Positions 27,181 to 38,690 of a stretch of DNA of 64,000 nt are shown one piece after another (position 1 is the stretch's first letter; the number at the start of each line of letters is the position of its first letter). The translations under genes were made by a program, and so were the position numbers. This DNA is from Bolinopsis microptera (taxonomy: Eukaryota > Ctenophora > Tentaculata > Lobata > Bolinopsidae), in the NCBI RefSeq assembly GCF_026151205.1, contig NC_087073.1:14589837-14653836 (forward strand). The letters run 5' to 3'. The notes under the pieces were generated by a model. The model saw nothing but the letters and a program-made list of their open reading frames with translations, had not been told where the DNA came from and ran no database searches.

Positions 27181-28159
27181 TTACACATTCACTAGGTCAT
27201 GTTGCTGCATCTTCCTTCTCCAGCCGTCAGGATAGAGTCAGTGGATAGTCACCAGCTGCGTGAACAAGTTAGTCGAGGTGCTGTAGGTACCATCGATGAC
27301 AAGATGAGGGGCCTCAGTAGTGTGGTTGGTTTTATCCGATTTTTTTAGATTTTTATGGAGGTTGTACCATTGTAAAACTTACATTGTGACAGTATAGATG
27401 GCGAAATATTTTTGAAAATGGTCCTAACACAGCTTTGATCGTAACAATAACATTGGGTGAATAGATTGGGTGAACAAACTATGAAGCAGGCAATTATATG
27501 TGCTCATCCATCATTCTGCATATGTAAGCTCAGTAGTTTAATTGCTGATTCATACTCAATGGTGAATCGATAGAATTCATGTGTCGGAGATCTCGTGAGA
27601 ACACCTTTTAATAATTATAGCCCTCAGGATCGCATTATCCCGATCCGGCCGTAATGTGTATTGAGGTATGCACTAATTGTAGTGGTGAACGGTTGCAGCT
27701 CAGGCTATGTTTCAGTATAACTATATATCAGAGATCGCAGTATATTTACATTCTACTCGGATTGCAGATTGAAATATTTTCCTGTTGGAACCATGACACA
27801 TGCAGGGGAATACCAAAATATTAATTGTAGTTGTACAACTAATATGATCAATAATTAATAACGGCAACGCTAATTTGTCCTTATTGGACTTTATTTTTAC
27901 GGACATAAGTTAATAGTTGCTGCAAATGCCAAATGCTACAACTACAAGTTAAGCCCTATAAGCGTTCATTTTAATGTCCGTTCATTTTAATTTTAATATC
28001 CGTTCGAATATTGGCGGACGTTTTAAATTGTAATTAAATAGACCATTGAGCGGTCGCGTTTATTTTAATGTCCGCTCAAAATTATTCCCGTTCACATTAT
28101 TTCCGGTTGCAGTACGGGTAAAATAACGTCCGAATAAAGCTATCCGATAAGCTCAGGCA

Positions 28160-28564
28160 GAGCTTTCGGACTGCGTAAAACTAAACAACTTGAAACGTTG
28201 AAGAACGCCGTTAAGACATCTGTTGTTAACTCACCTAAAACACAAACATACAGATCAATGGCGAAGAATTCACAGCCAACTGAGCAAGTCATAAGCTCGG
28301 AAACGCTCAAAAGCGTAGTAAAACGTGTTGTCGAGGAAGAGGACCGCAGTCTAGTCGCAACGTCATTGTATTTGGTCTGTTACAAGGGAGCGAGATATAT
28401 AGAGAACTTATTGACACAGTTAGCGTGATTTTCCAAAACATTGGACAGAAACCGAAGATTGTTGAAGCGTGCAAAATTGCCAAAAAATCTAAGGACAATT
28501 TAGTTACAGCATCATTAATAAATGAGCAATTACGTTATTCGTTTAAGTTATTGCAAAATATTTG
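28160..28564 (+). pseudogene. LINE ORF1-like fragment in left arm, copy A
   Basis: Reads as a piece of a protein with the block LKSVVKRVVEEEDRS followed, after a frameshift, by NVIVFG, KPKIVEAC and LRYSFK. This pattern resembles the nucleic-acid-binding ORF1-type proteins of some invertebrate LINEs (from memory). A 4-bp insertion (CTAG, around 28351-28354) relative to copy B breaks the frame at DRS. No start-to-stop gene is present. Confidence 0.55.
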
Positions 28565-29099
28565 ATTCCAATAAATAAAATCCGCCTTGTGCCGCGTGCG
28601 CTAATTTACTAATTCTGTACTCGCCTGCGTACACTGTACTGTACAGTGTACAGCAGGAGCAGGCCTGCAGGCATCATGCTACATGCGATTTTACAAATAA
28701 TGTTCGACTTCAATTTAGACTTTCAGTTGTTGTAGTTGTACTGTATACTAATTGTGTCGGTTTATATATTTACCAGGCGGCGCTCAAATTGCATGATCAA
28801 TAACGCTAATTTGTCCTTATTGGACTTTATTTTTACGGACATAAGTTAATAGTTGCAAATGCCAGATGCTACAAGTTAAGCACTAGCGTTCATTTTAATG
28901 TCCGTTTATTTTAATATCCGTTCGAATTTTGGCGGACGTTTTAAATTGTTAGTAAATAGAGCATTGAGCGGTCACGTTTATTTTAATGTCCTCTCAAAAT
29001 TATGGCTACGCCCGTTCACATTATTTCCGGTTGCGGTACGGGTAAAATAACGTCCGAATAAAGCTATCCGATAAACTCAGGCAGAGCTTTCGGACTGTA

Positions 29100-29463
29100 A
29101 AACTGGACAACTTGAAATGTTGAAGAACGCCGTTAAGACATCTGTTGTTGACTCACCTAAAACACAAACATACAGTTCAATGGCGAAGAATTCACAGCCA
29201 AAGCTGAGCAAGTCATAAGCTTGGAAACGCTCAAAAGCGTAGTAAAACGTGTTGTTGAGGAAGAGGACCGCAGTCGCAACGTCATTGTATTTGGTCCGTC
29301 ACAAGGGAGCGAGATATATAGAGAACTTATTGACACAGTTAGCGAGATTTTTCAAAACATTGGACAGAAACCGAAGATTGTTGAAGCGTGCAGAATTGCC
29401 ACGAAATCTAAGGACAATTCAGTTACAGCATCATTAATAAGTGAGCTTACGTTATTCGTTTAA
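29100..29463 (+). pseudogene. LINE ORF1-like fragment in left arm, copy B
   Basis: Same block as copy A but with NVIVFG in frame after EEEDRS. Here a 2-bp insertion upstream (near 29200, CCAAAGC versus CCAAC) breaks the N-terminal part, so the two copies carry different lesions. The coding similarity runs to about LRYSFK and then passes directly into the TCTG array. Confidence 0.55.
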
Positions 29464-29464
29464 G

Positions 29465-29944
29465 TCTGTCTGTCTGTCTGTCTGTCTGTCTGTCTGTCTG
29501 TCTGTCTGTCTGTCTGTCTGTCTGTCTGTCTGTCTGTCTGTCTGTCTGTCTGTCTGTCTGTCTGTCTGTCTGTCTGTCTGTCTGTCTGTCTGTCTGTCTG
29601 TCTGTCTGTCTGTCTGTCTGTCTGTCTGTCTGTCTGTCTGTCTGTCTGTCTGTCTGTCTGTCTGTCTGTCTGTCTGTCTGTCTGTCTGTCTGTCTGTCTG
29701 TCTGTCTGTCTGTCTGTCTGTCTGTCTGTCTGTCTGTCTGTCTGTCTGTCTGTCTGTCTGTCTGTCTGTCTGTCTGTCTGTCTGTCTGTCTGTCTGTCTG
29801 TCTGTCTGTCTGTCTGTCTGTCTGTCTGTCTGTCTGTCTGTCTGTCTGTCTGTCTGTCTGTCTGTCTGTCTGTCTGTCTGTCTGTCTGTCTGTCTGTCTG
29901 TCTGTCTGTCTGTCTGTCTGTCTGTCTGTCTGTCTGTCTGTCTG
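29465..29944 (+). repeat. (TCTG)120 microsatellite in left arm
   Basis: About 480 bp of uninterrupted TCTG (120 units). It is open in every frame and gives a cyclic Cys-Leu-Ser-Val reading, which is an artefact of the period rather than a gene. The mirror array in the right arm is longer (about 151 units). True length may differ from the assembly. Confidence 0.98.
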
Positions 29945-35927: not shown

Positions 35928-36531
35928 CAGACAGACAGACAGACAGACAGACAGACAGACAGACAGACAGACAGACAGACAGACAGACAGACAGACAGAC
36001 AGACAGACAGACAGACAGACAGACAGACAGACAGACAGACAGACAGACAGACAGACAGACAGACAGACAGACAGACAGACAGACAGACAGACAGACAGAC
36101 AGACAGACAGACAGACAGACAGACAGACAGACAGACAGACAGACAGACAGACAGACAGACAGACAGACAGACAGACAGACAGACAGACAGACAGACAGAC
36201 AGACAGACAGACAGACAGACAGACAGACAGACAGACAGACAGACAGACAGACAGACAGACAGACAGACAGACAGACAGACAGACAGACAGACAGACAGAC
36301 AGACAGACAGACAGACAGACAGACAGACAGACAGACAGACAGACAGACAGACAGACAGACAGACAGACAGACAGACAGACAGACAGACAGACAGACAGAC
36401 AGACAGACAGACAGACAGACAGACAGACAGACAGACAGACAGACAGACAGACAGACAGACAGACAGACAGACAGACAGACAGACAGACAGACAGACAGAC
36501 AGACAGACAGACAGACAGACAGACAGACAGA
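35928..36531 (-). repeat. (TCTG)151 microsatellite in right arm (CAGA on + strand)
   Basis: About 604 bp of uninterrupted CAGA, 124 bp longer than the left array. Reading frames through it (RQTD or CLSV cycles) are artefacts. Confidence 0.98.
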
Positions 36532-36900
36532 CTTAAACGAATAACGTAAGCTCACTTATTAATGATGCTGTAACTGAATTGTCCTTAGATTTCGTGACAA
36601 TTCTGCACGCTTCAACAATCTTCGGTTTCTGTCCAATGTTTTGAAAAATCTCGCTAACTGTGTCAATAAGTTCTCTATATATCTCGCTCCCTTGTGACGG
36701 ACCAAATACAATGACGTTGCGACTGCGGTCCTCTTCCTCAACAACACGTTTTACTACGCTTTTGAGCGTTTCCAAGCTTATGACTTGCTCAGCTTTGGCT
36801 GTGAATTCTTCGCCATTGAACTGTATGTTTGTGTTTTAAGTGAGTCAACAACAGATGTCTTAACGGCGTTCTTCAACATTTCAAGTTGTCCAGTTTTACA
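36532..36900 (-). pseudogene. LINE ORF1-like fragment in right arm, copy B'
   Basis: Mirror of the copy at 29100-29463, with the same N-terminal lesion. One visible amino-acid difference (RIV for RIA in the ACRI block) shows the two arms are separate sequences and not a single arm duplicated by the assembler. Confidence 0.55.
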
Positions 36901-37439
36901 GTCCGAAAGCTCTGCCTGAGTTTATCGGATAGCTTTATTCGGACGTTATTTTACCCGTACCGCAACCGGAAATAATGTGAACGGGCGTAGCCATAATTTT
37001 GAGAGGACATTAAAATAAACGTGACCGCTCAATGCTCTATTTACTAACAATTTAAAACGTCCGCCAAAATTCGAACGGATATTAAAATAAACGGACATTA
37101 AAATGAACGCTAGTGCTTAACTTGTAGCATCTGGCATTTGCAACTATTAACTTATGTCCGTAAAGATAAAGTCCAATAAGGACAAATTAGCGTTATTGAT
37201 CATGCAATTTGAGCGCCGCCTGGTAAATATATAAACCGACACAATTAGTATACAGTACAACTACAACAACTGAAAGTCTAAATTGAAGTCGAACATTATT
37301 TGTAAAATCGCATGTAGCATGATGCCTGCAGGCCTGCTCCTGCTGTACACTGTACAGTACAGTGTACGCAGGCGAGTACAGAATTAGTAAATTAGCGCAC
37401 GCGGCACAAGGCGGATTTTATTTATTGGAATCAAATATT

Positions 37440-37840
37440 TTGCAATAACTTAAACGAATAACGTAATTGCTCATTTATTAATGATGCTGTAACTAAATTG
37501 TCCTTAGATTTTCTGGCAATTTTGCACGCTTCAACAATCTTCGGTTTCTGTCCAATGTTTTGGAAAATCACGCTAACTGTGTCAATAAGTTCTCTATATA
37601 TCTCGCTCCCTTGTAACAGACCAAATACAATGACGTTGCGACTAGACTGCGGTCCTCTTCCTCGACAACACGTTTTACTACGCTTTTGAGCGTTTCCGAG
37701 CTTATGACTTGCTCAGTTGGCTGTGAATTCTTCGCCATTGATCTGTATGTTTGTGTTTTAGGTGAGTTAACAACAGATGTCTTAACGGCGTTCTTCAACG
37801 TTTCAAGTTGTTTAGTTTTACGCAGTCCGAAAGCTCTGCC
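37440..37840 (-). pseudogene. LINE ORF1-like fragment in right arm, copy A'
   Basis: Mirror of the copy at 28160-28564, including the 4-bp insertion after EEEDRS. The lesion therefore predates the duplication or homogenisation of the arms. Confidence 0.55.
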
Positions 37841-38690
37841 TGAGCTTATCGGATAGCTTTATTCGGACGTTATTTTACCCGTACTGCAACCGGAAATAAT
37901 GTGAACGGGAATAATTTTGAGCGGACATTAAAATAAACGCGACCGCTCAATGGTCTATTTAATTACAATTTAAAACGTCCGCCAATATTCGAACGGATAT
38001 TAAAATTAAAATGAACGGACATTAAAATGAACGCTTATAGGGCTTAACTTGTAGTTGTAGCATTTGGCATTTGCAGCAACTATTAACTTATGTCCGTAAA
38101 AATAAAGTCCAATAAGGACAAATTAGCGTTGCCGTTATTAATTATTGATCATATTAGTTGTACAACTACAATTAATATTTTGGTATTCCCATGCATGTGT
38201 CATGGTTCCAACAGGAAAATATTTCAATCTGCAATCCGAGTAGAATTTAATGTGTAAATATACTGCGATCTCTGATATATAATATAGTTATACTGAAACA
38301 TAGCCTGAGCTGCAACCGTTCACCACTACAATTAGTGCATACCTCAATACACATTACGGCCGGATCGGGATAATGCGATCCTGAGGGCTATAATTATTAA
38401 AAGGTGTTCTCACGAGATCTCCGACACATGAATTCTATCGATTCACCATTGAGTATGAATCAGCAATTAAACTACTGAGCTTACATATGCAGAATGATGG
38501 ATGAGCACATATAATTGCCTGCTTCATAGTTTGTTCACCCAATCTATTCACCCAATGTTATTGTTACGATCAAAGCTGTGTTAGGACCATTTTCAAAAAT
38601 ATTTCGCCATCTATACTGTCACAATGTAAGTTTTACAATGGTACAACCTCCATAAAAATCTAAAAAAATCGGATAAAACCAACCACACTA

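Follow-up and report, generated by a model that had tools for sequence, protein, structure and literature searches.

Long terminal inverted repeats (TIRs) that are themselves repetitive are known from several groups of DNA transposons. Foldback (FB/NOF) and Mutator-assigned foldbacks such as Tetris share long repeat-bearing TIRs and target-site duplications (TSDs) of 8-10 bp, and the available part of the Tetris report describes that element without a coding copy (PMC4079207). Galileo, a member of the P superfamily, is likewise foldback-like, with long TIRs repeated internally. Rehavkus is a little-studied Repbase group that the accessible text of PMC6446971 places as an outgroup or sister of the Mutator-like elements (MULEs), with which it was aligned; according to the same text it has a 9-bp TSD, arthropod and annelid hosts, a minisatellite adjoining the TIR and a PHD finger, and Rehavkus-1_HR is cited there. 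Rehavkus-1_TC is given as 9.5 kb long, its inverted termini containing tandem units of 164 bp, in the portion of PMC10218199 available. Here, we analysed a stretch of 64,000 nucleotides from the ctenophore Bolinopsis microptera (contig C2:14589837-14653836; genome of 264.65 Mb), hereafter the window, which contains an 11373-bp element with 3.2-kb inverted arms and a gene for a 752-aa protein. The element is very probably an autonomous and recently active foldback-type TIR DNA transposon, whose DDE transposase appears to be built most like that of Hermes. Among the papers listed in our literature search, none described a ctenophore foldback transposon or named the protein family, which agrees with the earlier suggestion that the family may be undescribed.

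Structure and mobility of the element

The transposon occupies window positions 27318-38690 and has the termini TAGTGTGG...CCACACTA, or, in a longer reading of the inverted ends, TAGTGTGGTTGG.../...CCAACCACACTA. The 9-bp TSD GGGCCTCAG stands on both sides, at 27309-27317 and 38691-38699, confirming the duplication and the inverted ends that a sequence-only reading of this DNA had claimed. The whole arms measure 3.16 kb and 3.25 kb. Their outer parts, 2147 bp on the left (27318-29464, plus strand) and 2159 bp on the right (36532-38690, minus strand), differ by 5 mismatches and 12 gap positions in an alignment of 2159 columns (99.2% identity). They are followed inward by tetranucleotide arrays of perfect units, (TCTG)120 in the left arm (29465-29944, plus strand) and its inverted partner (TCTG)151, read as (CAGA)151, in the right arm (35928-36531, minus strand). 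Past the arrays, the inner parts of about 0.5 kb (29945-30481, plus strand; 35437-35927, minus strand) are just 79% identical. The earlier description of arms of about 3 kb as nearly identical thus applies to the outer 2.1 kb and to the arrays but fails for the inner parts, and the TCTG array that it reported is present with 120 and 151 units. Each arm also contains a segment of about 0.69 kb twice; in the left arm the copies lie on the plus strand at 27866-28548 and 28802-29465, the second running up to the TCTG array, and they are about 90% identical, as seen via the inverted right-arm copy. The long inverted arms with internal repeats correspond to the foldback structural class. No Rfam model matched.

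Of the candidates in the genome DNA searches, 160 in one and 53 in the other, 40 were scored in each, and the copy counts are accordingly lower bounds. The family has no fewer than 11 two-ended copies, all with the same ends: the window copy and ten others on contigs C1, C3 (two), C4, C8, C9 (three), C12 and C13, plus a one-ended piece on C5. A second family has one element each on C1, C4 and C13. Its ends resemble those of the first family at 79% identity across the initial 667 bases or 93% across the initial 350. More distantly related ends were also found by DNA search. TSDs of 8 or 9 bp flank all 11 copies of family 1 and all three of family 2, the duplicate of the C13 family-2 copy being offset by one base inward. 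When relatives are included, 15 of 16 two-ended elements have a TSD, of 9 bp in ten cases and of 8 bp in five. Reading by eye gave the 8-bp TSD TTAAATAT for the related element L037 and no clear TSD for another relative of 3.4 kb, L036. As a control for chance, none of 182 pairs of left and right flanks taken from different copies shared 8 or more junction bases. G+C makes up 71 of 122 bases in the 14 TSDs of the two families, a higher share than the 38.8% of the flanks (binomial p 1e-5).

One copy, C3a, has a paralogous empty site. It lies within a repeat, and the C13 family-2 element (L033) carries the unoccupied paralogue of that repeat, which is 97.7% identical to the joined flanks over 600 columns and holds a single GTGTACCGA at the junction. 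Inverted ends, TSDs of near-constant length, the empty site and an encoded DDE-type protein with putative catalytic residues are together what a cut-and-paste TIR transposon presents. The foldback-type anatomy and the recent activity proposed earlier are supported, as are TSDs of 8-9 bp and several copies. The absence of further copies sharing these ends and TSDs had been named as grounds for refutation; such copies exist, and the gene lies inside them at 10 unlinked places. The same observations bear on whether the gene is a host gene, trapped between inverted repeats or spread by segmental duplication. Its 11 exons, probably unusual for a transposase, would suit such an origin; however, gene and arms occur together at 10 unlinked places, with different flanks, TSDs at each and one empty site, and we reject this explanation as exceedingly improbable.

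The transposase gene, its copies and its protein family

We rebuilt the gene on the minus strand as 11 exons with GT-AG at all junctions, a coding sequence of 2259 nt, 752 aa and one terminal stop, reproducing the apparently intact gene model proposed earlier. Exons 1 to 3 (35035-35264 with the start codon, 34548-34743 and 33932-34274) are followed by exon 4 (33632-33790) with D261 in the motif FDGK, exon 5 (33309-33418) with D337, exon 6 (33066-33189) with C366xxH369, exon 7 (32733-32848), exon 8 (32294-32530) with R465-W466, exons 9 and 10 (31953-32127 and 31444-31634) and exon 11 (30734-31111) with E683 in PCHSQSVEH. The choice of the exon-8 donor gives 746 or 752 aa at equal splice-consensus scores. 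We favour the 752-aa form because its residues 98-671 align gap-free, at 99.3% identity, with the NCBI model of another copy (P0001, LOC134820989).

The gene or its readable part is present in 10 of the 11 family-1 copies, the C8 copy having no transposase match. Eight copies have all exons readable, and six of them are open, five encoding 752 aa and C3b 753 aa; the gene of C1a is frameshifted, and exon 2 of C13a lacks an alignment over its first 33 bases. C3a (L020-L021) and C9c (L026-L027), each with exactly 5000 N at one arm that represent either an assembly gap or a withheld stretch, are unreadable as to coding state. C9a is longer by about 3.6 kb between the exon 9 and exon 10 regions, as judged from match spacing. 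Identity between copies is mostly 99-100% over exons and introns, and lower in exon 2 (93-97.5%, three copies) and in introns 9 and 10. The five 752-aa copies differ at few positions, with non-synonymous changes equal to or exceeding synonymous ones in 10 of 10 pairs; the copies are therefore young, and selection on them is unreadable.

In the ten copies with both arms readable, 0-4 substitutions per about 850 bp separate the two arms of one copy, as opposed to means of 4.6-9.1 between copies, a pattern that fits homogenisation between arms. On the other side, the left arm differs from that of the nearest other copy by only 0-5 substitutions, so that recent descent explains the similarity nearly as well and conversion is not proven. 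Of the two causes put forward earlier for the near-identical arms, recent activity is supported, and gene conversion stays unproven.

The 752-aa protein matched no Pfam model and nothing among the PDB sequences. A short-word search returned two relatives, P0001 and the metagenome protein P0002 (38% identical), and a two-row profile search gave the same two and none further. Viral contigs held no relatives, and prokaryote genomes held one partial match (L040:3001-3237), on a 3.9-kb contig of an Anaerolineae metagenome-assembled genome, which is probably eukaryotic contamination. The family resembles uncharacterised insect and Hydra proteins, and a hand-written consensus served as the query of a wider protein search. 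It returned 1218 proteins at E <= 0.001. Among the best 120 of these, the named sources are butterflies, moths, beetles, an aphid, the snail Biomphalaria and the leech Helobdella, and the rest are mostly metagenomic. The window protein alone also matches that set (P0099, BLASTP E 4e-70, 30% identity; the best 40 rows all below 1e-54). D261, D337, C366, H369, R465, W466 and E683 are kept in 90% or more of the other 45 sequences of a 46-sequence alignment, and the CxxH motif is invariant across a 79-row alignment. NCBIfam matched none of seven relatives scanned, and the family profile had no match among PDB sequences. A large animal protein family for which we found no curated name is hence tied to a real mobile element. 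These uncharacterised proteins, for which we found no Pfam model, thereby gain a mobile-element context of ends, TSDs, an empty site and several open copies, which makes the transposase status of the family directly testable.

Predicted fold and affiliation of the transposase

Predicted models of relatives suggest an RNase H-like core with the putative catalytic residues D261, D337 and E683, together with the CxxH motif (C366, H369) and a large insertion that is entirely helical. The closest fold to the better of the models is the hAT transposase Hermes, which shares this combination of core, helical insertion and CxxH. RAG1 and the P element were weaker than Hermes in the structure comparisons, except with the P0001 model, where the P element stood above Hermes. 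The best viral fold match was a hAT C-terminal dimerization protein (4.6e-7).

Several observations weigh against a Hermes-like transposase in a recently active element. The fold was read from models of relatives, and global TM-scores (template modelling scores) were low in all comparisons, at most 0.3 for the query. With the P0001 model, whose predicted local distance difference test score is 76.8 and whose C-terminus departs from the family, Foldseek ranked ISCth4 first (6.5e-5), followed by the P element (1.9e-4) and Hermes (5.3e-4); ISCth4 and the IS256 family differ from our element in being bacterial, with 31-bp TIRs, a small insertion domain and copy-out/paste-in transposition as described in the accessible text of PMC7780238. 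No transposase family occurs among the Pfam families listed for 68 relatives (25 of 34), all of them weak matches (best E 0.003). TSDs of 9 bp prevail (10 of 15), whereas hAT transposition gives 8 bp, found here in five. Finally, the five intact copies appear to show no recent purifying selection.

The sequence-only reading had proposed a Mutator-like transposase of the FB/NOF type, and a Mutator-like (FB/NOF, Phantom) element would share the long repeat-bearing arms. Neither the window protein nor the listed families of the 68 relatives include a MULE or FB/NOF model (PF10551 and kin), and with the better model Hermes scores 5 Z units higher and aligns over 333 rather than 260 residues, in a comparison that is one-sided because the PDB chains listed include no eukaryotic MULE. 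Lacking the domain and with the weaker fold in the better model, MULE membership was not accepted, and we regard it as very unlikely. THAP and P-type transposase domains were likewise absent from the window protein (Pfam) and from the families listed for the relatives.

A deep hAT branch missed by current models would be compatible with the Hermes-like transposase proposed here. The Hermes-like fold of the predicted models, the match to the viral hAT dimerization protein and the CxxH and RW motifs point in this direction. hAT elements have TAG-type ends and 8-bp TSDs of the form nTnnnnAn. The family ends in TAGTG and L037 in TAGGG, and four of the five 8-bp TSDs fit nTnnnnAn, in a post hoc comparison on five sites; three of the first four would fit by chance with a probability of 0.0028. 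Two members among the best 120 of the 1218 proteins are labelled DUF4371 in UniRef and one DUF659, names that recall hAT, but neither model matched when the three proteins were scanned. No hAT domain of Pfam, the dimerization domain included, was found in the window protein, in 3 + 8 further sequences or among the families listed for the relatives. Because of this and the mostly 9-bp TSDs, plain hAT membership is doubtful, and the kilobase arms with satellites and the 11 exons also set the element apart from Hermes. We consider a deep hAT branch possible and put it forward with reserve.

By anatomy and hosts, Rehavkus appears to be the nearest name, judged from the accessible text of three sources (PMC6446971, PMC13359780, PMC10218199). 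If our element belonged there, its family would already be named. As described in those portions, the two have in common satellite units beside or in the inverted termini (TCTG, 65-bp and 36-bp arrays here), a length of about 10 kb and beetle or annelid hosts (PMC6446971, PMC10218199); the 9-bp TSD of Rehavkus is found in 10 of the 15 TSDs here, the other five being of 8 bp. Against this stand the PHD finger and the alignment with MULEs reported for Rehavkus in the available text (PMC6446971): the window protein and the listed families of its relatives include neither a PHD finger nor a MULE model, and Hermes is closest in the better model. This separation is one of description rather than of sequence. 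The protein family of the window does occur in Helobdella robusta and in beetles (P0084, P0029, P0042, P0112). We take HR in Rehavkus-1_HR to stand for the same leech. Membership in Rehavkus nevertheless seems unlikely to us.

Within the preferred interpretation of a Hermes-like DDE transposon, we tentatively suggest that the family may represent an unnamed eukaryotic DDE lineage of superfamily rank in the hAT/IS256/MULE (CxxH) clan, present across ctenophores, insects, molluscs and annelids. It would combine an unusual staggered cut of mixed length, 8 or 9 bp, with a foldback architecture whose arm satellites are particular to each subfamily. The enzyme would cut at the TAGTGTGG ends and paste the element elsewhere, and a staggered cut of the target would leave the 8- or 9-bp duplications. 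Mixed duplications within one family bear on target-cut spacing in the hAT/MULE clan. With their doubled sub-terminal segment and satellite array, the arms probably provide binding sites in multiple copies; repeated arm segments acting as added binding sites are reported for Galileo in the accessible text of PMC4079207. Recombination or gene conversion between the arms may keep them alike, and interior loss would yield passengers without the gene, such as the C8 copy.

Arm satellites, possibly captured sequence and insertion contexts

Related elements carry other satellites. Family-2 elements have a 65-bp minisatellite, repeated about 50 times close to the right end in the C4 copy and 5 and 2 times in the C1 copy, and the C13 copy retains a scrap of the transposase (E 9e-9). 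L037 (C12:4251200-4256500) is a 4.4-kb element with the ends TAGGGTGG, almost all of it a hairpin of about 80 inverted 36-bp minisatellite units, and L036 retains pieces of transposase exons 1 and 2. Because TCTG, 65-bp and 36-bp units occur in related elements, satellite arms seem to be a habit of the group, with the satellite type varying by subfamily. Side by side, the three satellites offer a natural series in which to follow the seeding of satellite DNA by transposon arms.

Within the doubled arm segment lies part of an open frame (SRNVIVFGPSQGSEIYRELIDTVSEIFQNIGQKPKIVEACRI...), which we take to be ORF1p-like. Two such fragments occur per arm, at 28260-28560 and 29179-29465 of the window for the left. 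DNA kin of the frame lie at four other loci at 83-88% identity, none of them among the transposon ends found, and one locus (L039, C6:20449900-20452000) encodes a longer protein of this presumed type. A Pfam scan of the frame gave weak, unrelated matches only. In view of these four loci, the arms seem to have taken up a piece of another gene or of a long interspersed element (LINE).

The element often inserts into small repeats. Short dispersed repeats in the window (23958-24054, 40333-40397, 58682-58798 and 59048-59156) resemble target sequences of the copies C9a, C12 and f2_C1. The C4 family-2 copy (L029-L031, C4:2504154-2531288), 25 kb long, is inserted within a 21-bp tandem array and contains long frames of 973, 1219 and 1406 aa that look LINE-like by eye. 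The flanks of C3b (L022, L023) place that copy near the centre of another inverted repeat, whose arms are 95% identical over 0.8 kb.

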